Shown: positions 7,121 to 40,082 of the stretch, piece after piece
Layout of the letters: every line of letters begins with the position of its first letter
Numbering within the stretch: the first letter of the stretch is position 1
Virus record (IMG/VR): IMGVR_UViG_3300009418_000040
Coordinates: 1-40,082 of that record
Length of the DNA: 40,082 nucleotides
Direction: 5' to 3' (one strand)
DNA from: a virus
Program-made: the position numbers and the translations under genes
Notes under the pieces: model-generated
Seen by the model: only the letters and a program-made list of their open reading frames with translations
Told to the model about the DNA's origin: nothing
Database searches by the model: none

Positions 7121-8173
7121 TCATACTAGTTGACCGTCTTCTATATCGTAATTCTCTACCCTTGCCCCACTCTTACCTCTCTTAATGATCAGGAAGCCAT
7201 GATTCCAAGCATTTAAAGGGCTGTAATCGGGCGTTAAATCACAAAGGCAACCTGAGCTATAGGAACGCTTTGTAACCCCGTTAACATCCTTCTCGCTGTA
7301 ATAACTAGACCTGTGCAAATGAGCACTAATTGTGTTAACTTTAGTCTTCATGAAGTATCCCTTTGCAGGAAATGCCCCACCTGACCCATAGAACTCATGT
7401 CCATGCAAGATAGTGTAATCTTGGAATACAATAGGACGCTTGCCGTCAACCATTTCAATGCCGTATTCATCTAAGCAGAATAGGTTCTCAAACTCAAATG
7501 CTGTAACGCCTAATAATTCTACCGCTTTCTGGGTCATATAACGAATATATCTATCTTCATGGTTGCCCATTTTAAATATAATAGGAATATCAGGGAACAT
7601 ATAGCGCAGATACTCAAAACCCTCAATTACGGTGTCTATCTCAGCTTGAAAATCTACCTGTCGAGGATCTTTCTGCCAGAAACTCACAGCAAAGCAGTCG
7701 ATGAAATCACCATTAAGTATGACAGCCTCTACACCCTGCTCTACACCTATCTCACAAGCCAGCTCTAAGGCTTCAGGGTCATGGTAAGGCATATGGACAT
7801 CAGACAGTATTAAGGCATTCTGGATACCTTTATCGACTTTGTAGTGTTGCCAATCTTTAAAATGCTTTTTAGATTTGGGCATACTTCCATAAGGGGCATT
7901 ATCTCTAGGGTTATCTTTCTTGTATTTTGCAACGTCTGCTTTATGCACATCTAAAACCTTACCCTGGCTGCCTCGTAGCTTCCTTAATGTAGTTCTAACA
8001 GCGTCAAAGCTAGCAAATAGCTCTATATGTTCATCATAGATGATTCTCGCTAGCTGGTGTGTTGGTAGTTTGCAATATTTCTTCTTATCTAAATAGGTTC
8101 GGCATAGGTTTAATTTAACACCTGAGCCTGCTTTGGGGCCTCTTTTCATAGTCAGTTTTGTAGTATTAGTCAA
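7121..8173 (-). CDS. Calcineurin-like metallophosphoesterase
   Basis: A 350-aa protein with the full metal-binding signature: D-x-H (125-127, SDVHMPYHD), GD (155-156, NGDFID), GNHED (203-207), a histidine pair in HGHE (257-260) and AHLH (284-287). These ligate two metals for phosphoester hydrolysis. The first 100 residues look like a separate DNA-associated region (basic, with helices 'LPTHQLARIIYDEHIELFAS'), as in phage phosphoesterases that may process DNA ends or nucleotides. It stands alone on the minus strand between two plus-strand operons. The substrate cannot be read from sequence. Confidence 0.85.
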   Translation of the reverse strand: MTNTTKLTMKRGPKAGSGVKLNLCRTYLDKKKYCKLPTHQLARIIYDEHIELFASFDAVRTTLRKLRGSQGKVLDVHKADVAKYKKDNPRDNAPYGSMPKSKKHFKDWQHYKVDKGIQNALILSDVHMPYHDPEALELACEIGVEQGVEAVILNGDFIDCFAVSFWQKDPRQVDFQAEIDTVIEGFEYLRYMFPDIPIIFKMGNHEDRYIRYMTQKAVELLGVTAFEFENLFCLDEYGIEMVDGKRPIVFQDYTILHGHEFYGSGGAFPAKGYFMKTKVNTISAHLHRSSYYSEKDVNGVTKRSYSSGCLCDLTPDYSPLNAWNHGFLIIKRGKSGARVENYDIEDGQLV

Positions 8174-8279: not shown

Positions 8280-8368
8280 GTTTTCGGGTAGGAGAACAGA
8301 ATTTAGTGGTGTTAGTTCACCTTGAAGCCTAGCAAATAGCTCCTACCCGAGTTGCTAGGCTTTTTTTT
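8280..8368 (+). ncRNA. Leader RNA with competing helix and rho-independent terminator (attenuator-like)
   Basis: Terminator hairpin: AAGCCTAGCAA (8325-8335) pairs with TTGCTAGGCTT (8352-8362), with a run of eight T (8361-8368). Its loop contains CTCCTACCCG (8340-8349), a perfect 10-bp complement of CGGGTAGGAG (8285-8294). Only two bases separate that strand from the terminator's 3' arm, so both helices can hardly form fully at once. The upstream helix therefore looks like an antiterminator. A small extra hairpin (GGTG...CACC) lies near 8308-8321. The replication genes start 37 nt after the T-run with no promoter seen between, so this probably controls them. A second locus (38731) has the same architecture with different stem sequences. 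Confidence 0.75.
8361..8368 (+). terminator. T-run of the attenuator terminator
   Basis: Eight T follow an 11-bp stem (8325-8335 with 8352-8362), a canonical intrinsic terminator on the plus strand just before the replication operon. Confidence 0.75.
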
Positions 8369-8404: not shown

Positions 8405-8683
8405 ATGAGAGTAGTATATAAATATAAATTAGCAAGTAGTCAGCAGGTATTAGAGCTAAGAAGGGGCTTTAAGGTTGTTCATACTGGATCGCAAGGGATA
8501 CGTAATAGTGTAGGTGAGGAAAACTTCATATGGATTGAGCTAGACCTTGAAAATGCAATTGAAAATGTTGTGTTTCATACATTTGGAACAGGTCATAATA
8601 TAATGAATCCATCTTATAAGCATATTGGATCTATATTTAATGGTGCTTATGTTTGGCACATATACCAAGGGGGAGCAATATAA
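8405..8683 (+). CDS. DUF7352-like small phage protein (92 aa)
   Basis: Begins MRVVYKYKLASSQQVLELRR and contains 'HTFGTGHNI' and a terminal 'GAYVWHIYQGG'. This matches a widespread small phage protein pattern (VYKY at the start, VGTGH in the middle, VWH-x-(Y/F) at the end) labelled DUF7352. The role is unknown but it often lies near replication genes, as here. Shine-Dalgarno sequence GGGTAGG. The stop overlaps the initiator gene (TAATG). It lies just downstream of the attenuator RNA. Confidence 0.6.
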   Translation: MRVVYKYKLASSQQVLELRRGFKVVHTGSQGIRNSVGEENFIWIELDLENAIENVVFHTFGTGHNIMNPSYKHIGSIFNGAYVWHIYQGGAI

Positions 8684-9387
8684 TGCCAGACAGAATAATA
8701 AGGATGGGGATTTTGACCTCCGATAAAGTCAATTCACTTACTCCACAAGGGGAAGTTTTCTACAGAAGATTAATGTCCATTTTGGATGATTATGGTAGGT
8801 ATGATGGTCGTGAAGCTATACTTTTAGCCCAATTATACCCCTTGCAGATGCATAAGGTAAAAACTAAGGATATTTCTCGATGGATGAAGGAATGTGTTAA
8901 GGCTAAATTACTGTATTTGTATGTTCATGGTGGTAAGCCATATATAGAAGTCGCCAACTTCCGCCAGCGTCTGCGGGCAAAGGTCAGCAAGTGGCCAGCA
9001 TATGACGGTCAAGTGCAGGACTATACGGAGGCGGAGACGTATTCGGAAACGGAGACGCATTCGGTGAGTGATTTGGAAACTGTTGAAGAAATCTACAATG
9101 CATATCCAAAGCGAGTCGGTAAGGCTAACGCAATTAAATCAATCAGCAAGGCATTGGAGAAAGTGGATGCTAAGAAACTGTTGGAGGTTGTTAAGATTTA
9201 TGCCAAGTCTAGGGAGAACCAAGATATGCAATACACCAAACATCCTGCGACTTGGTTTAATCAGCAATGTTGGGAAGATGACCAATCAACTTGGTTCAAA
9301 GGTGGAGCTAAACCCGTAGAGGATGAATGGGCAGGAGTATCACGAGGCTTAAAGATAGAAGGAGACACAGCAATGTGTGACATGTAA
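8683..9387 (+). CDS. Phage replication initiator / replisome organiser-like protein
   Basis: The ATG at 8683 is preferred over an in-frame ATG 30 nt upstream because it follows GGGGGAG and couples to the previous stop (TAATG). The 234-aa product begins MPDRIIRMGILTSDKVNSL. It has an N-terminal winged-helix-like region ('FYRRLMSILDDYGRYDGR', 'LLYLYVHGGKPYIEV'), a Glu/Thr/Ser-rich linker with a short tandem repeat, and a C-terminal 'EEIYNAYPKRVGKANAIKSI' block as in lambda O / DnaD-type initiators. It would load the helicase encoded next. Origin not located. Confidence 0.65.
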   Translation: MPDRIIRMGILTSDKVNSLTPQGEVFYRRLMSILDDYGRYDGREAILLAQLYPLQMHKVKTKDISRWMKECVKAKLLYLYVHGGKPYIEVANFRQRLRAKVSKWPAYDGQVQDYTEAETYSETETHSVSDLETVEEIYNAYPKRVGKANAIKSISKALEKVDAKKLLEVVKIYAKSRENQDMQYTKHPATWFNQQCWEDDQSTWFKGGAKPVEDEWAGVSRGLKIEGDTAMCDM

Positions 9388-10721
9388 TGAAACCTGATAT
9401 TTTAGCCAGAGCAATACTTGGTGCAATAATCATCGACACACAAAGATGTCTAAACATAGCCATTGAAGCTAATGTCCAATCAGACCTCTTTTTCAATCTC
9501 AACCATCAGATTATCTTTGACGAGATATACACATATTACTCACAAAATGGTGTAGCACCTGACGAGATACAGACAATGGAGCTACTCTCTGCAAAGGATG
9601 AGTGGCACAATGGATTATCCAATGAATTCACATTAGCTACTTCAGCAGTTGATACCACAGCAGGCTTCAATGATTGGATTGCTCAGTTTGTAGGCATCAG
9701 GCAGAAGGATTTAGAGGTTAAGGCTTATGAGTCGTATAAGGCTCTCAGAGGCGATACACCCCCTGAAGAGATAAAGGTTATGCATGAGAACTGCAAAGCC
9801 CTCCTCGACCGTATAGAGACGCTTCAGCAAGCTTCTGAGGATGAGGTTAAGGAAGGATTCACTGAAATCTATGATGAGATGCAAAAACTCATAGATGGTG
9901 AGAAGCCAAAGGTGTATTTCTCAATGAATCATTTAGCTGAGTTTCTATCTTCTTTTGGACCCATCAGAAAGCAGGAATTAGTCATACTGGCTGCTCGTCC
10001 AGGTATCGGTAAATCTAGCCTACTCAACCAAGCTATTAAGGAGAACATTAAACAAGGGCAAAATGGTGTGCTATTTAACTTTGAGATGTCTAGCTCTGAG
10101 ATCATTGAGCAGTTTGCATGTATCGAGGGCCAACATGACTCTAGGATGATGCGGTATAACAAGAGACAGATACAAGACTTCATTGAGACATCAAGGCAGT
10201 TAGAGCCTATCGTAAACAATCGCCTTAAGATATTCACTAAATCAGAGAACATTAAACGGATGAATAGTCAATTAGACTTACACGTTCAGAAGTATGGTAA
10301 CCCTGATTTTATTGCAGTAGATTACTTACAGCTTATACAGTCCACAGGTAGTAAAGATAATAGAGCTACACAGGTTGGTGAGGTGTCTAGGACGCTTAAG
10401 AAGTGGACACAGACATATAATTGCCCTGTCATAGCACTATCACAGCTAAACAGAGCAGGAGAGGCAGATAATAGGCAGCCAAGGCTATCAGACTTGAGAG
10501 AGTCAGGTTCTATTGAGCAGGATGCAAATAGGGTTATACTTATTCATTGCCCTATGAGTAATAGTAGTGGACTAGATCAAATGGACCTACCAGTTCAGGA
10601 GATACTACTCATACAGGCTAAGTGTAGAAAAGGACCAAGGGGGAAGATCAGTATTGCTTTTAAGAAATGCACTACTAGCTTTTTCGGTGTAGCAGCAGAA
10701 CAACAAGAGGAGATTATTTAA
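9387..10721 (+). CDS. DnaB-like replicative helicase
   Basis: A 444-aa protein with an N-terminal helical domain of the DnaB type (residues 1-100) and a RecA-like C-terminal domain. Walker A is AARPGIGKSS (about 202-211) and Walker B is FIAVDYLQL (about 308-316). A downstream 'SDLRESGSIEQDANRVILI' matches helicase motif H4. It unwinds DNA 5'-3' as a hexamer ahead of a host polymerase, since the phage shows none. The start overlaps the initiator stop (TAATG). Length is close to the family norm. Confidence 0.9.
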   Translation: MKPDILARAILGAIIIDTQRCLNIAIEANVQSDLFFNLNHQIIFDEIYTYYSQNGVAPDEIQTMELLSAKDEWHNGLSNEFTLATSAVDTTAGFNDWIAQFVGIRQKDLEVKAYESYKALRGDTPPEEIKVMHENCKALLDRIETLQQASEDEVKEGFTEIYDEMQKLIDGEKPKVYFSMNHLAEFLSSFGPIRKQELVILAARPGIGKSSLLNQAIKENIKQGQNGVLFNFEMSSSEIIEQFACIEGQHDSRMMRYNKRQIQDFIETSRQLEPIVNNRLKIFTKSENIKRMNSQLDLHVQKYGNPDFIAVDYLQLIQSTGSKDNRATQVGEVSRTLKKWTQTYNCPVIALSQLNRAGEADNRQPRLSDLRESGSIEQDANRVILIHCPMSNSSGLDQMDLPVQEILLIQAKCRKGPRGKISIAFKKCTTSFFGVAAEQQEEII

Positions 10722-10800
10722 CCTGCTAACTACCCTTATGTTGCCATTTAAGCCCGTTTTAACCCATTAAGTAGTAATATAAGGGTAGTTATATGGCAGG
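10722..10800. repeat. Long inverted repeat between the helicase and tRNA-Gln
   Basis: AACTACCCTTAT (10728-10739) is perfectly complementary to ATAAGGGTAGTT (10779-10790); CCTGC (10722-10726) and GCAGG (10796-10800) extend the pairing. The right arm merges with the 3' end of the tRNA-Gln gene (minus strand). There is no T-run. Possible roles are 3'-end processing or stabilisation of helicase or tRNA transcripts. Confidence 0.7.
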
Positions 10801-10867
10801 TCCACAGGAACTTGAATCCCGACAAATAGAATCAAAATCTACTATGCTACCATTACATCATGGACCT
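10794..10867 (-). tRNA. tRNA-Gln (anticodon UUG), CCA encoded
   Basis: Read on the minus strand, acceptor AGGTCCA (10867-10861) pairs perfectly with TGGACCT, followed by discriminator G and encoded CCA (10796-10794). D-arm ATGT...GCAT; anticodon arm GTAGA-TTTTGAT-TCTAT with anticodon TTG; T-arm CGGGA-TTCAAGT-TCCTG. All four stems form. It is oriented against the flanking plus-strand operon, so it needs its own minus-strand transcript. It would read CAA codons; phage tRNAs often supplement host supply. Confidence 0.92.
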
Positions 10868-10904
10868 AAAAAAAGGGGCTGGAGGAGACAAACCCTACCA
10901 GCCC
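10868..10904 (-). terminator. Hairpin plus T-run immediately upstream of tRNA-Gln
   Basis: On the minus strand GGGCTGG (10904-10898) pairs with CCAGCCC (10882-10876), followed by C and seven T (10874-10868), and the tRNA begins at the next base. As an intrinsic terminator this would block expression of the tRNA unless relieved. The loop strand CTCCT next to the 3' arm can pair with AGGAG (10942-10938), a weaker copy of the architecture at 8280 and 38731. Confidence 0.55.
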
Positions 10905-15716: not shown

Positions 15717-16238
15717 ATGAAAATAGACTTTAATTATAGATTAATACAGCTTGCTAATAATAAGGGCACAGCACTTGTGGATGCAGATGACTTTGAGGAG
15801 TTATCTAAGTATAAATGGTATCGCCAGAATGGAGCAGGGTATGCTTGTCGTGGTGCATCGGTAAAGGAGAAAAAAAATGGATCTACCTCAAATATATTTA
15901 TGCATAGGCATATCATGAATGCTAAAAAAGGAACATGTGTTGACCATAAAGATGGTGCTAAATTAGATAATAGAAGGGTAAATTTAAGATTCCTTAGCAA
16001 TATGGAGAACGCTAGAAATTCGGGTCCATGTAAGACTAATAATAGCGGACATCGGGGTATAGTGTGGAATGATTTATGCAATAAATGGCAAGCTAGAATT
16101 ATGCATAAAAGAAAGAGCTACCATCTTGGTTTATTTGATAATATTAACGATGCTATACAGTGCAGGAAAGAGGGTGAAAAAAGATTTGGTTGGGAACCTG
16201 CAATTAATACTAAAGGAAAAAAACAATATGACATTTAA
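15717..16238 (+). CDS. HNH homing endonuclease with AP2-like domain
   Basis: A 173-aa protein. The HNH core spans about 62-95: 'MHRHIMNAKKGTCVDHKDGA' supplies the paired His and the DH, and 'LDNRRVNLRFL' the Asn. Residues 110-155 (NSGHRGIVWNDLCNKWQARI and on) form the small AP2/ERF-type DNA-binding domain typical of phage homing nucleases. It cleaves intron- or gene-less target DNA to spread. The location shortly after the permuted tRNA element is suggestive. Its end overlaps the next gene by 11 nt. Confidence 0.85.
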   Translation: MKIDFNYRLIQLANNKGTALVDADDFEELSKYKWYRQNGAGYACRGASVKEKKNGSTSNIFMHRHIMNAKKGTCVDHKDGAKLDNRRVNLRFLSNMENARNSGPCKTNNSGHRGIVWNDLCNKWQARIMHKRKSYHLGLFDNINDAIQCRKEGEKRFGWEPAINTKGKKQYDI

Positions 16239-16587: not shown

Positions 16588-16685
16588 ATTATCTTTATAT
16601 GTGGCTAGGGTAGCTCCTGAAAAGCGGAAACTTTCACCGCCTGCCATATAATATTAATGAAAGTAATTTAACAGAGAGATTAAAT
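16588..16685 (+). other. Intergenic stretch with possible hairpin
   Basis: Contains TGAAA-AGCGGAAAC-TTTCA and an alternative GCGG/CCGC pairing near 16617-16640, flanked by TGGC and GCCA. CCTGCCATATAA (16640-16651) is the exact reverse complement of 10789-10800, which overlaps the 3' end of tRNA-Gln and its downstream bases. No promoter or gene is seen. Confidence 0.3.
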
Positions 16686-17231
16686 ATGAAGGAAGTATGG
16701 AAAAATGTGGTTGACTGGGAGGGCTTATACCAAGTAAGTAATCTAGGCAGGGTAAAGAGTCTAAAGCGGATTGTTGATGGAAAAAATAACACTCCACGTG
16801 TCTTGCCAGAAAAAATAATAAGGCAATCACCCATAACTAAACATACCCTTAGGGTTAAGTTTACCATGACTTATCAAGGAGTCAGTAAGACGCTCTATAC
16901 CCATAGGGCGGTATTAGAAGCATTTAAAGGAATTTGCCCAAAAGGATTTGAGGGTTCTCATATAGATGGAAACCCTAATAATAATAGTTTAGATAATTTA
17001 ATATGGGAGTCTCATAAGGATAATATAGGCAGACAGATAGAGCATGGGACTAGAAATTTCGGGGAAACAAATGGATCTTCAAAGCTCAAAGGGCATGATG
17101 TCATAAACATAAGAAAACTACATAAGTCTAGTGATTATAGTTACGCAGATATTGGCAGGATATATAATACTACAGGAACTAACATAAGCTTAATTGTTAG
17201 GAGAAAAAGGTGGGATCACATTAAGCAGTAA
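16686..17231 (+). CDS. NUMOD4-HNH homing endonuclease
   Basis: A 181-aa protein. An N-terminal NUMOD4 motif (EVWKNVVDWEGLYQVSNLGR, residues 3-22, with 'VKSLKR') is followed by an HNH nuclease (YTHRAVLEAFKG; GSHIDGNPNNNSLDNLIW) and a C-terminal helix-turn-helix (YSYADIGRIYNTTGTNISLI). This is the classic free-standing phage homing endonuclease layout. It is the last plus-strand gene before the convergent late cluster. Confidence 0.9.
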   Translation: MKEVWKNVVDWEGLYQVSNLGRVKSLKRIVDGKNNTPRVLPEKIIRQSPITKHTLRVKFTMTYQGVSKTLYTHRAVLEAFKGICPKGFEGSHIDGNPNNNSLDNLIWESHKDNIGRQIEHGTRNFGETNGSSKLKGHDVINIRKLHKSSDYSYADIGRIYNTTGTNISLIVRRKRWDHIKQ

Positions 17232-36354: not shown

Positions 36355-38495
36355 TATGCGCTAGGGACGGAATTACCAGGTGTTGTGCCTAGTTTGCCTA
36401 TGAGGGCATTTTGGCGTTGTGTGTCTTGAAACTGTAATTGCTCGATATACTTCTGGATACGGGCTTGTGCCTGTGGAGAGTTCTGTAGCATTTGTTGCAC
36501 ATCTTCAGCAGGTATATCCTCTGTTCCTTGCATCCATTGCTCTATAACTTGCATACGTAGCTGAGTATTAGCATTCTCAGGGGCATTAACCACCTGACCT
36601 GATACCATCTTACTTATATCTTCCTGTGTCTTTCGTGCTTCTTCCTCAGTCGCCTGTTGCGTAGAACGTACAAATCTATCTGCATATGAAGAATCCATTG
36701 CTCCAGCCATAGCCTTAAGCCACTCGTCAAAATCAAATGTGCCACCTTTATCATATTTAGCTGCTGTATCACCTAACATGGCGAGGTTTTCTATAAGTTT
36801 AGCCGTATCAGCATTCAATAGACTATAATCAAAGTAGAAATCGACACGTTCTACGCCTGCATTACGTATGAATTGCATGGCTTGGGCATCTCTGGACCCT
36901 ATAACACGGAAGAACTTCTCGTCATCACCGAATTGTTGGTCTAAATCCCATATCTGGTTGATAACTTCTACCCAATTCTGCATCCACTGATTAACTTGGT
37001 CTTGTAGTATATCAACTGCATGCTGTGGGTCTTCACCATCAACAGGTCTGCCAAATGTGCGGTTAAGATTGTCTCTAACAGCTTGTTCTATCTCTATGGA
37101 TTCATTAATATTACCGCCTGGAGTCTCTACAAAACCGTATTCTCCCCTGCGCCTAACACCAATAGAGTCACCTGGACCCCAATTTAAAGGTTTACGGCCT
37201 AATGGATGCTCTTTAGGTGGGCAAGTGACCATCGCTGTGCGGTCTACTCGTGAATCCTGTTGGACCTTAATCTCATCCTGAGCACCTTTGCCCAGTTCTG
37301 GAACGCCTCGTGTATCCATTAGCCTGTTACTTCTGTATTCTCTAGGGAAGGCTACAAAAGGATAGCGTGAGGGCTTATAATCCAAAAGCTTTGACATACC
37401 CCATCCCTGAACTTCGGAATGGAATGATGTGATAAATACACCGATAACACCGTCTTCTGTCAATGCTTTTTCATATCCGTGTGTAATTCTTACAAATCCT
37501 GCTGCTTCATCAACTGAGCCTTCACCTGCACCAAGGTTATTATGGACAGCATTAAGGGTCTGCCTACGTGTGGTGTCTTCTGTTGATTGCCCTACAGTAG
37601 TCTTAATGACTTCATCCACCCATTCTTCGTCCCAATCTTCTTCAACTACTTTAGATCGTAATTGCTCAGGGGTCATATACTCGCTGTGGAATATATAAGG
37701 GGAATCTTGTAGGTTAATTATATTAGGTGGGAAAACAATGTCTTCACCGACCTCTAAAGCTTTAATTGCTGGTCTATTATGTATAATAGTAGGGACAGCT
37801 ACTTGAGCTTCTCCCTTTTCACGTAGATCATGGACTATCTTACGTGCTTTACGCCTCTTTATATTAGGGTAAAACGTCATTATGACATCAGAGGCTTCTT
37901 TAACTTGCTCTTTGTCAGTTATTAGTGCTACCACCTTTAAGCCAAACTCAGGGTCTTCTGGATCTTGGTATTGCGCTATCTCTTCTATAGTAAGAGTATT
38001 AAGCTGATCTTCTTCCTTTGTATCCCATGCGACACCTAGTATTCCTATAGCCTTTTCCTCTTGGTAATTAGCTAGTATCTTGGCTTGTCTTGGTAGATCA
38101 GGTATAGAGTTCATCAGATATTTCATATACTCAGTGATCATACGAGCACGTTCTATATCATTAGCTTCTGATGGTATGGCAGTCAAATTGCCCCGTAACA
38201 AGGCTTTGCAGAACATCGACACATTCTCATCTATGATGGAATTAGTGGTGAAGGGTCTGATGTCGCTTGCGTCTTCCCAAGGATAGGCAGGCTTATTAGG
38301 CGTTCCATGCTTGCGTCCAGTCCGTAGGTTCTGTCCAGGCCAGATGCAGTTACGAGTATTATAATTTAGTTCAACTTGGGTATCATAAGATCCCATGTCA
38401 GCTTTAGATTCACGAAATGCGTCCTTTAGTCGCTCAATTTCTGGATCTTCGTCCGTATTTCTCTTGATTTCGTCTCGATTATTCAAATTGGCCAT
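36354..38495 (-). CDS. Portal protein (713 aa)
   Basis: Large podoviral portal. 'IERLKDAFRESKADMGSYDT' begins the wing; 'LNYNTRNCIWPGQ' is typical of this subgroup, and 'PAYPWEDASDIRPFTTNSII' follows. 'PRYRSNR'-like and 'VPELGKGAQDEIKVQQDSRV' lie in the stem, and a Gln-rich C-terminal helix forms the barrel. The dodecamer is the DNA entry vertex and TerL docking site. Length (713) is within the podovirus range. Start codon directly preceded by AAATATT without Shine-Dalgarno sequence. Neighbour order supports the call. Confidence 0.8.
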   Translation of the reverse strand: MANLNNRDEIKRNTDEDPEIERLKDAFRESKADMGSYDTQVELNYNTRNCIWPGQNLRTGRKHGTPNKPAYPWEDASDIRPFTTNSIIDENVSMFCKALLRGNLTAIPSEANDIERARMITEYMKYLMNSIPDLPRQAKILANYQEEKAIGILGVAWDTKEEDQLNTLTIEEIAQYQDPEDPEFGLKVVALITDKEQVKEASDVIMTFYPNIKRRKARKIVHDLREKGEAQVAVPTIIHNRPAIKALEVGEDIVFPPNIINLQDSPYIFHSEYMTPEQLRSKVVEEDWDEEWVDEVIKTTVGQSTEDTTRRQTLNAVHNNLGAGEGSVDEAAGFVRITHGYEKALTEDGVIGVFITSFHSEVQGWGMSKLLDYKPSRYPFVAFPREYRSNRLMDTRGVPELGKGAQDEIKVQQDSRVDRTAMVTCPPKEHPLGRKPLNWGPGDSIGVRRRGEYGFVETPGGNINESIEIEQAVRDNLNRTFGRPVDGEDPQHAVDILQDQVNQWMQNWVEVINQIWDLDQQFGDDEKFFRVIGSRDAQAMQFIRNAGVERVDFYFDYSLLNADTAKLIENLAMLGDTAAKYDKGGTFDFDEWLKAMAGAMDSSYADRFVRSTQQATEEEARKTQEDISKMVSGQVVNAPENANTQLRMQVIEQWMQGTEDIPAEDVQQMLQNSPQAQARIQKYIEQLQFQDTQRQNALIGKLGTTPGNSVPSA

Positions 38496-38582
38496 AATAT
38501 TTTATAAAATAAGGGGCAATTTTATCATACTTTGTCCGAAATACCCCCCTATTTACTAATTTAATGTCTGTTTTTGTTTTTA
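38496..38582. other. Start of the portal-TerL insert, upstream region
   Basis: AT-rich spacer between the portal start (minus) and the first plus-strand small-RNA promoter. It holds the second copy of the 16-bp repeat (38542-38557) and a pyrimidine-rich stretch. No gene is seen. Confidence 0.4.
38542..38557. repeat. 16-bp repeat TACCCCCCTATTTACT, copy 2
   Basis: Identical to 36096-36111. Located between the divergent portal gene and small-RNA promoters. A shared regulatory-protein site is one possible reason for conservation. Confidence 0.8.
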
Positions 38583-38610
38583 TTGACATCTATCTGTGGG
38601 TATATACGTT
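38583..38610 (+). promoter_or_regulatory. Putative promoter of small RNA 1
   Basis: TTGACA (38583-38588), 16-nt spacer, TACGTT (38605-38610). Same layout as the early promoter at 1892. Confidence 0.5.
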
Positions 38611-38616
38611 ATTACA

Positions 38617-38687
38617 TAAGAATACCCCTCACGCCTCTATCGGCCTTGGGTCTACATAAGCGCAAAACAGAGGGGTTACTTTTTTTA
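38617..38687 (+). ncRNA. Putative small RNA 1 with terminator
   Basis: A transcript from the 38583 promoter would contain ACCCCTC (38624-38630) paired with GAGGGGT (38670-38676), followed shortly by seven T (38680-38686), an intrinsic-terminator-like end. The 39-nt loop contains a further short pairing (ACGC with GCGC). No open reading frame with a ribosome binding site is seen. Function unknown. Confidence 0.45.
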
Positions 38688-38696
38688 AAGAAATAG

Positions 38697-38724
38697 TTGA
38701 CACCTGTCTGTAATTGTCTATTGT
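38697..38724 (+). promoter_or_regulatory. Putative promoter of small RNA 2
   Basis: TTGACA (38697-38702), 16-nt spacer, TATTGT (38719-38724), only 10 nt after the terminator of small RNA 1. The spacer resembles that of the 38583 promoter (NCTNTCTGT). Confidence 0.6.
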
Positions 38725-38730
38725 TTGCAT

Positions 38731-38807
38731 TATTCCTTGGACGGACAGAGAATTTATTTTAAGGCTCTAGTGAAAGACCCGTCCAAGGTTCACTAGGGCT
38801 TTTTTTT
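38731..38807 (+). ncRNA. Small RNA 2: attenuator-like RNA, second copy of the 8280 architecture
   Basis: CCTTGGACGG (38735-38744) pairs perfectly with CCGTCCAAGG (38779-38788). The latter sits in the loop of a 14-bp terminator hairpin formed by 38761-38774 and 38789-38802 (two or three G-U), followed by eight T (38800-38807). Zero bases separate the 10-bp helix's 3' strand from the terminator's 3' arm; four bases separate terminator 5' arm and helix strand, as at 8336-8339. Both copies share ACAG(AG)AATTTA after the first strand, while stem sequences differ but stay complementary. Downstream lie a permuted tRNA locus and a GIY-YIG gene. Confidence 0.75.
38800..38807 (+). terminator. T-run of small RNA 2 terminator
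   Basis: Eight T overlap the end of a 14-bp stem (38761-38774 with 38789-38802); an intrinsic terminator on the plus strand. Confidence 0.75.
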
Positions 38808-38818
38808 ATGCCTACCAA

Positions 38819-39116
38819 GTAAGCGGTAATCCTCGATGCAGGTATAATCCGATAAAAGTAATATCTGTAGAGGCTCGGTAGCCCAGATCTATTCGTAAAA
38901 CAATGGATTGATAGTAATATATAAATAAGGTTAGTTAGAGCTTCTACAGATATTACTACAGTGGGGAGTAATGATTTAGAATGCCGACTCCCTGATGCAA
39001 CAATTTGATAGCACATGGGTTCAAATCCCACCCGTTCTTAGTAATGGAGGCGATAAGGATTAGCACTATCATTAGGGTTTGGGCAGCCAAATAACCAAGA
39101 GAGGACTTAAGCTTAC
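38819..39116 (+). ncRNA. Structured RNA element around the second permuted tRNA
   Basis: Outer pairing: GTAAGC (38819-38824) with GCTTAC (39111-39116) and TCCTC (38830-38834) with GAGGA (39101-39105), separated by a symmetric 5-by-5 internal loop. A 20-bp stem (38857-38876 with 38938-38957, one G-U) encloses a 61-nt loop. GGGGAGT (38963) can pair with ACTCCCT (38987). CATTAGGG (39070-39077), running out of the tRNA 5' half, pairs 8/8 with CCCTGATG (38990-38997) just before the 3' half. TTTGG/CCAAA forms a hairpin near 39079-39092. No coding potential is convincing. Layout parallels the element at 15010-15386. Confidence 0.55.
39006..39073 (+). tRNA. Second candidate permuted tRNA, degenerate
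   Basis: 3' half: TGATAG (39006-39011), short variable loop, T-arm ATGGG-TTCAAAT-CCCAC (one mismatch), acceptor CCGTTCT (39032-39038). After two bases the 5' half begins: GTAATGG (39041-39047, pairing 6/7 with two G-U), AG, D-arm GCGA-TAAGGAT-TAGC (3/4), A, CTATC then ATT. CTATCA (39066-39071) pairs perfectly with TGATAG across the permutation. The 5' half has exact canonical spacing. Position 8 is A, not U, and the anticodon is not readable, so it may be a decaying copy or a specialised RNA. Confidence 0.5.
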
Positions 39117-39147
39117 CTCCGCCCAATCAATTTAACAGAAAGATATT

Positions 39148-39489
39148 ATGAGTTTATTATATGTAATTAAATGCAATGAGTTTATTAAAATAGGAATATC
39201 AAGACATCCCAAAGAGAGACTAAAAGCTTTGCAGACTTCAAGTCCTTATAAGCTTAAAATAATTAAAACCTATAAAGTTAAACAAGCTCGTATATTTGAG
39301 CTAGTAATACATACGTTATTGAAACCCCATCATGTGAGACTTGAATGGTTCAATTGTAGTCCTTATATGGCTGATAAATGGATAAACAGATTAAATGAGT
39401 TTCATACTGACGATATAAAGAGCCTCAAGAAGATTATGCATAAGAGGGATTTAATAATTGAGAAGTGTAAGTCTTTTGAAATCAGGTGA
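39148..39489 (+). CDS. GIY-YIG endonuclease (T5orf172-like)
   Basis: A 113-aa protein. 'LLYVIKCNEFIKIGISRHPK' gives the Y-V-I ... K-I-G-I pattern in place of GIY ... YIG, with the conserved Arg in 'SRHPKERLKALQTSS'. The catalytic Glu is likely in 'QARIFELVIHTLLKPHHV', followed by 'EWFNCS'. This is the short single-domain form common in phages. It lies 31 nt after the second permuted tRNA element on the same strand, as a homing nuclease would beside its intron. Confidence 0.8.
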   Translation: MSLLYVIKCNEFIKIGISRHPKERLKALQTSSPYKLKIIKTYKVKQARIFELVIHTLLKPHHVRLEWFNCSPYMADKWINRLNEFHTDDIKSLKKIMHKRDLIIEKCKSFEIR

Positions 39490-39549
39490 GGTGTGTCTGC
39501 TCCTCTACAATTTATATACAAATACTATACTACTCTGTACTTGGTATAA

Positions 39550-39570
39550 ATATTCTAGAATTTAGAATAT
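39550..39570. terminator. Palindrome between convergent genes
   Basis: ATATTCTA-GAATT-TAGAATAT is a perfect 8-bp inverted repeat between the ends of the GIY-YIG gene (plus) and TerL (minus). An AT-rich bidirectional terminator or RNA stabiliser is possible; there is no strong T-run. Confidence 0.35.
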
Positions 39571-39572
39571 CC

Positions 39573-40082
39573 TTAATGTCTGCTAGTCCTTATATGGTGT
39601 GCTTCAGTCTCATTGATATAAACAATACCAGCAGTAGCAGCGTATCTTACACAGTCAACAGGGTCTTTTGTAGGTTCATCTTTACCTAGTAAGCCTGTAT
39701 ATTCTGTCATAGCGTATATAGTCTGTTGGCATCTATCTGAGAAGAACAATTTAGGTTTATTACCCATATCCATAGGTCTTGTGTCATCCCATGCTAATAA
39801 TGTGTTGATAGCTTGTAATCCTGTGTCTTCGTCATATCCAGGTGCAGGTATAACGTCTATACCCACATTAATAAGCTCATCCATGATAGATGTCTGCATA
39901 TCTTCCTTTTGGTAACGAGCAGCACCGAGCCGAGGGTCAATTAAGCGTTCAAATATCTTAACGCCTTCTTCTACCTCTTCTATGCGATCACGATAATCTA
40001 GGAAACCGTAACCATTAGGTTTAGCTGCATCACCAGGTCTTCCTTTAGTGCCTTTTGACATATCAGCCCAATCTCCATAGGC
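39573..40082 (-). CDS. Terminase large subunit, C-terminal nuclease domain, partial
   Basis: The frame is open to the right edge (AYGDWAD precedes an internal Met), so the ATPase half lies outside. The visible 169 residues hold the end of the RNase H-like nuclease: 'GYGFLDYRDRIEEVEEGVKI', 'LIDPRLGAARYQKED' (a family motif after the second catalytic Asp) and the terminal 'KDPVDCVRYAATAGIVYI', whose Asp is the last metal ligand. TerL cuts concatemers and pumps DNA through the portal. The portal gene lies 1.1 kb downstream, separated by the plus-strand insert. Confidence 0.85.
   Translation of the reverse strand, partial: AYGDWADMSKGTKGRPGDAAKPNGYGFLDYRDRIEEVEEGVKIFERLIDPRLGAARYQKEDMQTSIMDELINVGIDVIPAPGYDEDTGLQAINTLLAWDDTRPMDMGNKPKLFFSDRCQQTIYAMTEYTGLLGKDEPTKDPVDCVRYAATAGIVYINETEAHHIRTSRH

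Follow-up and report, generated by a model that had tools for sequence, protein, structure and literature searches.

Two phage elements in which an upstream strand pairs with the loop of an intrinsic terminator are candidates for short pseudoknotted RNAs

Results

An upstream strand pairs with a terminator loop ahead of the replication genes

The window analyzed here comprises the 40,082 nucleotides of the viral record IMGVR_UViG_3300009418_000040. Its plus strand carries a replication operon (8405–10721) that encodes a DUF7352 protein, a replication initiation protein (RepO), and a DnaB helicase, and to the left lies a divergent metallophosphatase gene on the minus strand (7121–8173). A tRNA-Gln(TTG) gene with an adjoining intrinsic terminator is located at 10794–10904 on the minus strand, opposite to the replication genes. 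Between the metallophosphatase gene and the operon, the plus strand contains a structured element, here named copy A, which consists of two helices, S1 and S2.

A preliminary description of this region had reported a perfect 10-bp helix between positions 8285–8294 (CGGGTAGGAG) and 8340–8349 (CTCCTACCCG). These coordinates proved exact, and the helix is longer: the core is extended by a Watson–Crick pair (U8284–A8350) and a G–U pair (U8283–G8351), and the complete S1 joins 8283–8294 (UUCGGGUAGGAG) to 8340–8351 through 11 Watson–Crick pairs and one G–U pair. The 11-bp terminator that was described together with it was likewise recovered. Its stem, S2, is formed by 8325–8335 (AAGCCTAGCAA) and 8352–8362 (TTGCTAGGCTT), with a tract of eight T at 8361–8368, and it encloses a 16-nt loop. 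The 3′ strand of S1 lies wholly inside this loop, where it fills 12 of the 16 bases and directly abuts the 3′ arm of the terminator, leaving no third connecting loop (L3 of 0 nt, or 1 nt if the G–U pair is not counted). The first connecting segment, L1 (8295–8324), begins with AACAGAAUUUA, of which AGAAUUUA is common to the second copy described below, and contains a small GGUG/CACC hairpin; the second, L2, has the four nucleotides AUAG (8336–8339). The S2 3′ arm and U8 tract together (8352–8368) mark the predicted 3′ end of the RNA.

The terminator of copy A is separated from the DUF7352–RepO–DnaB operon by 36 nt. No promoter-like site was recognized in this gap, so expression from upstream would need readthrough (unless an unrecognized promoter is located there), and readthrough at this position would be regulatory. 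For copy A itself, no clear sigma-70 promoter was found. The arrangement resembles the leaders of phages lambda (tR1) and HK022 (put), in that a terminator lies ahead of a replication operon; lambda tR1 precedes the cII-O-P replication operon. No boxA-, nut-, or put-like element was recognized at copy A, nor was an antiterminator gene.

A second unit of the same plan lies in an insert between terL and portal

The preliminary description had also pointed to a further copy at 38731, and this is a true second unit (copy B, 38735–38807) built on the same plan. Its 10-bp S1 joins 38735–38744 (CCUUGGACGG) to 38779–38788 (CCGUCCAAGG), and its terminator stem (AAGGCUCUAGUGAA/UUCACUAGGGCUUU, followed by eight T) has its 5′ arm at 38761–38774 and its 3′ arm, including the U8 tract (38800–38807), at 38789–38807. 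L1 is ACAGAGAAUUUAUUUU (38745–38760), L2 consists of the four nucleotides AGAC (38775–38778), and the 3′ strand of S1, lying within the terminator loop, again abuts the S2 3′ arm (L3 of 0 nt). Copy B has its own terminator and a consensus-like predicted promoter, TTGACA-16-TATTGT (38697–38724), with a repeat, TTGACAYCTRTCTGT, that is shared with the neighboring unit. Transcription is predicted to start at about 38729–38731, which would yield an RNA of ~79 nt with S1 ~4–6 nt from its 5′ end. There is no open reading frame within copy B.

Copy B is located on the plus strand, opposite in direction to the late genes, within the ~1 kb that separates terL and portal. There is no operon directly behind it, and the next plus-strand gene lies 340 nt downstream. 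In the nearest relatives, terL and portal are separated by no more than a short spacer, so this ~1-kb segment (38495–39573), which is not present in the relatives L003–L011, represents an insert in the late-gene region. It contains two RNA units and an open reading frame of the GIY-YIG type (T5orf172/MUG113), whose orientation is opposite to that of the late genes. A long inverted repeat (AGTAATATCTGTAGA...TCTACAGATATTACT; 38858–38956 and 38970–39035) is followed by a tRNA T-arm-like sequence, GGGTTCAAATCCCAC, which was not called by ARAGORN.

The GIY-YIG gene (39148–39489) is one of three plus-strand genes of homing-endonuclease type in this 40-kb phage, the others being HNH_3 (15717–16238) and NUMOD4+HNH_3 (16686–17231), and two of the three lie near structured RNAs. 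An int-alpA RNA (RF02996; 51.6 bits, above the gathering score) is found at 16598–16664 on the plus strand, flanked by a DPBB-fold (lytic-transglycosylase-like) gene and the NUMOD4/HNH homing endonuclease gene, and no int or alpA gene was noticed nearby.

A solitary abiF-like RNA directly precedes copy B

The other RNA unit of the insert (38583–38690, plus strand) consists of a promoter-like sequence, TTGACATCTATCTGT (38583–38597), a core that resembles the abiF RNA family (RF03085; 38625–38676), and a U tract. The core scored 29.5 bits (E-value 4.8e-5, for this genome), which is under the RF03085 gathering score of 37 bits, and none of 14 control genomes gave a match. In an alignment with 19 bacterial abiF RNAs, the conserved CACGCCUCU...AAGCGCA core inside the terminator stem is present, and the 3′ end, GGGGUUACUUUUUU, is nearly identical to that of three of these examples; the apical loop of the phage RNA is ~13–14 nt longer than in most of them. 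A pseudoknot was seen in one bacterial abiF RNA (L156) and not in others, and it was set aside. No Abi_2 toxin gene was found in the phage, as opposed to six of the ten bacterial genomes tested, where an Abi_2 gene scoring over the cut-off follows the abiF RNA just downstream. Previous work showed that abiF RNA neutralizes the AbiF RNase both in cis and in trans (PMC12373285). The toxin-less phage unit is a candidate RNA antitoxin mimic and appears to be an orphaned antidote from a bacterial system that acts against phages.

The abiF unit lies directly upstream of the copy B promoter, and TTGACAYCTRTCTGT heads both units and occurs nowhere else in the window when up to one mismatch is allowed. 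Copy B and the abiF RNA thus resemble each other as adjacent short phage RNAs, each with its own terminator and a near-identical promoter-like sequence. They differ in structure, because abiF RNAs are a family of simple hairpins whose conserved motifs are missing from copies A and B. The position of copy B directly after a toxin-less abiF RNA, under a near-identical promoter, makes an RNA counter-defense cassette possible. In such a scenario, the pseudoknot RNAs would act as decoys, for instance by imitating an RNA antitoxin and keeping a host RNase engaged. A precedent exists in phage phiTE, which carries a non-coding pseudoknot RNA, pseudo-ToxI, that mimics a type III antitoxin (PMC3475682), and the absence of the insert from relatives is in keeping with this reading. 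Pseudo-ToxI, however, is a tandem repeat of ~36 nt that is not based on a terminator. Type III antitoxins are usually repeats, whereas copies A and B are single units without a match to ToxI or any other known antitoxin family, and no toxin gene was recognized among the open reading frames scanned. Copy A, moreover, lies outside the cassette. We regard a decoy function as rather unlikely.

The loop pairing is not a product of chance

Short upstream complements can turn up for any one long terminator loop, and helices of 7 bp do occur. We compared both copies with shuffled sequences and with terminators at other loci. When the 90 nt upstream were shuffled, an 11-bp Watson–Crick match to the loop of copy A arose once in 20,000 trials (5e-5), and a match of at least 10 bp to the loop of copy B arose in 8 of 20,000 (4e-4). 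Dinucleotide shuffles of the whole window (n = 30) produced no element of comparable quality. In a comparison set of 1.34 Mb from other loci, 131 strong terminators were found, 21 of them with loops of at least 12 nt; the longest helix between an upstream segment and a loop among the 131 was 7 bp, and one such 7-bp case is the small RNA RydC. Within the window, two of the three strong terminators carry a loop-pairing helix. A chance origin of the helix is excluded on these grounds, and an explanation in terms of ordinary terminators with fortuitous loop complementarity, which would have to produce 10–11 Watson–Crick pairs twice at the same spacing, is extremely improbable.

Both copies share an S1 of 10–12 bp, an S2 of 11–14 bp, an L2 of 4 nt, and an L3 of 0 nt, and AGAAUUUA occupies the same place in each, just 3′ of the S1 5′ strand. 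Their overall alignment is weak (p ~0.013 against shuffles). In eight of the ten S1 pairs, neither base is the same in the two copies, yet all ten remain paired. If the copies are paralogous, these differences represent compensatory change; otherwise, the same design was reached twice, and in either case the S1 pairing looks selected.

Both helices can form in the same molecule

In neither copy do S1 and the terminator have a base position in common, which by topology makes the element an H-type pseudoknot. For the same reason, S1, which the preliminary description had called antiterminator-like, does not qualify as a conventional antiterminator: the antiterminator of an attenuator with mutually exclusive helices would overlap bases of the terminator. 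That description had further considered full formation of both helices sterically unlikely. We examined this with A-form RNA coordinates in which the S1 3′ strand runs straight into the terminator 3′ arm. In this arrangement, L2 has to cross the deep groove of S1 over 20.7 Å for 10 bp or 25.0 Å for 11 bp, and the reach of a 4-nt L2 is ~24–28 Å, which makes both stems sterically feasible together and speaks against the supposed clash. A 12-bp S1 would need 28.6 Å, slightly over this limit, so the terminal G–U pair of copy A is probably open. The other coaxial arrangement is excluded, because 0–1 nt would have to span more than 40 Å. In the pseudoknot of phage T2 gene 32, a 1-nt loop crosses 7 bp, and the same calculation reproduces this crossing (10 Å).

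A rough energy sum, made up of stacks and a pseudoknot penalty of 9.6–16 kcal/mol, gave −40.3 to −33.9 kcal/mol for the pseudoknot of copy A versus −34.2 for the best nested fold, with the highest penalty tried amounting to a tie. For copy B, the pseudoknot was lower throughout (−35.1 to −28.7 versus −22.8). Stepwise nested folding showed that S1 is the minimum-energy structure until the terminator 3′ arm is transcribed, in agreement with the earlier proposal that this helix forms first. Nested folds constrained to S1 or to S2 lie only ~1–2.5 kcal/mol apart. In this model, S1 formed first need not be undone when the terminator arm emerges, and coexistence of S1 and S2, as opposed to switching between them, is the most likely outcome.

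These results bear on the possibility that copy A acts mainly as an attenuator in cis, where S1 would delay or weaken folding of the terminator and a ligand, protein, or RNA bound to the S1 5′ strand or to L1 would set the level of readthrough. One part of the earlier switching-leader proposal that stands is the placement: the terminator lies just before the replication operon with no recognized promoter between, and readthrough there would matter. The early dominance of S1 and the closeness of the nested folds are also compatible with it. The exclusive switching itself was not supported, since the helices share no bases and can coexist, and at copy B the design recurs where no operon follows directly. 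The more specific suggestion of a riboswitch or put-like RNA gained no particular support, as neither copy matched any Rfam family at the gathering score, including riboswitch, leader, and antitoxin families. An attenuator acting mainly in cis is possible, but we consider it unlikely.

The architecture resembles RydC, and homologues were not found

The closest known likeness is RydC (RF00505) of E. coli and Salmonella, an H-type pseudoknot in which stem 2 is the intrinsic terminator and stem 1 joins an upstream segment to the terminator loop. In the RydC–Hfq crystal structure, the pseudoknot includes the terminator stem, and the stability of the RNA depends on the pseudoknot (PMC4337610). Both architectural features, a terminator stem with U8 and an S1 formed between the S2 loop and a segment farther upstream, are present in copies A and B, and the same scanner recovers RydC at its annotated site in K-12. 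The phage elements differ in their dimensions (S1 of 10–12 bp versus 7 in RydC, L2 of 4 nt versus 1, L3 of 0 nt versus 7), and their loop lengths imply a coaxial stack opposite to that of RydC, which, unlike the phage copies, is moreover encoded on a bacterial chromosome and has its seed at the 5′ end. The RydC covariance model did not match either copy at E ≤ 10. Because of the missing family match and the opposite stack, we classify the elements as a variant of a known architecture and not as RydC. Terminators of Hfq-binding sRNAs are reported to carry seven or more U (PMC5558911), a length that the tracts of eight in both copies reach.

Searches of viral, genome, phage, and plasmid collections yielded no homologue of the pseudoknot RNA, which limits alignment-based covariation to the two copies. 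No such element was found among relatives of the portal (80 loci) or of the metallophosphatase. The source contig is metagenomic, each element comes from a single record, and one near-identical contig (27 kb) spans neither copy. Several candidates were rejected. Sub-threshold matches of IhtA and atoC to copy A were judged to be terminator look-alikes; a pattern combining a T tract with ACAGAGAATTTA, the L1 motif common to both copies, gave 30 viral matches, none with the pseudoknot; and a combined L1/CTAG/terminator pattern gave 6 viral and 20 genome matches, of which two weakly pseudoknot-like ones were discarded, their spacing being different and one lying in AT-rich, repetitive-looking sequence. 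With respect to possible mRNA targets of L1 in the phage, complements of AGAATTTA were found at no gene start.

Discussion

Both helices are present in both copies at a common spacing, they are not explained by chance, and they are sterically compatible. The reading that we favor, and consider probable, is that both loci make short pseudoknotted phage RNAs in which the terminator stem serves as the second stem. The transcripts, of ~79 nt for copy B and ~80–100 nt for copy A, would end at the intrinsic terminator and adopt an H-type pseudoknot in solution, with the 10–11 bp of S1 pairing with the terminator loop and stacking on S2 with no L3, and with L2 crossing the deep groove of S1. S1 would form first, and the terminator arm would then pair without breaking it. 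Polymerase would be released at the U8 tract, leaving an RNA with both ends sealed in helices and hence presumably stable, in which single-stranded L1 with AGAAUUUA may be exposed as a contact site for an mRNA, Hfq, or a protein. The terminator of copy A would in addition cap the leader of the replication operon, which would be expressed by readthrough unless an unrecognized promoter is located in the 36-nt gap.

A more speculative extension, which we hold to be distinctly unlikely, would unite the features of the insert: the solitary abiF mimic and a new class of pseudoknotted-terminator RNA, as a second decoy against a host defense RNase, would form one cassette, and a paralogue would have relocated to a site ahead of the replication operon.

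Pseudoknots that use an intrinsic terminator as one stem appear to be rare, with RydC the sole case identified here. Two independent-looking copies with a stem 1 of 10–11 bp and no L3 would provide a clean system for studying how a terminator folds when its loop is already tied up, and they bear on whether phages use sealed RNAs as stable regulators. The toxin-less abiF RNA beside copy B, in turn, offers a directly testable case of RNA-based counter-defense.
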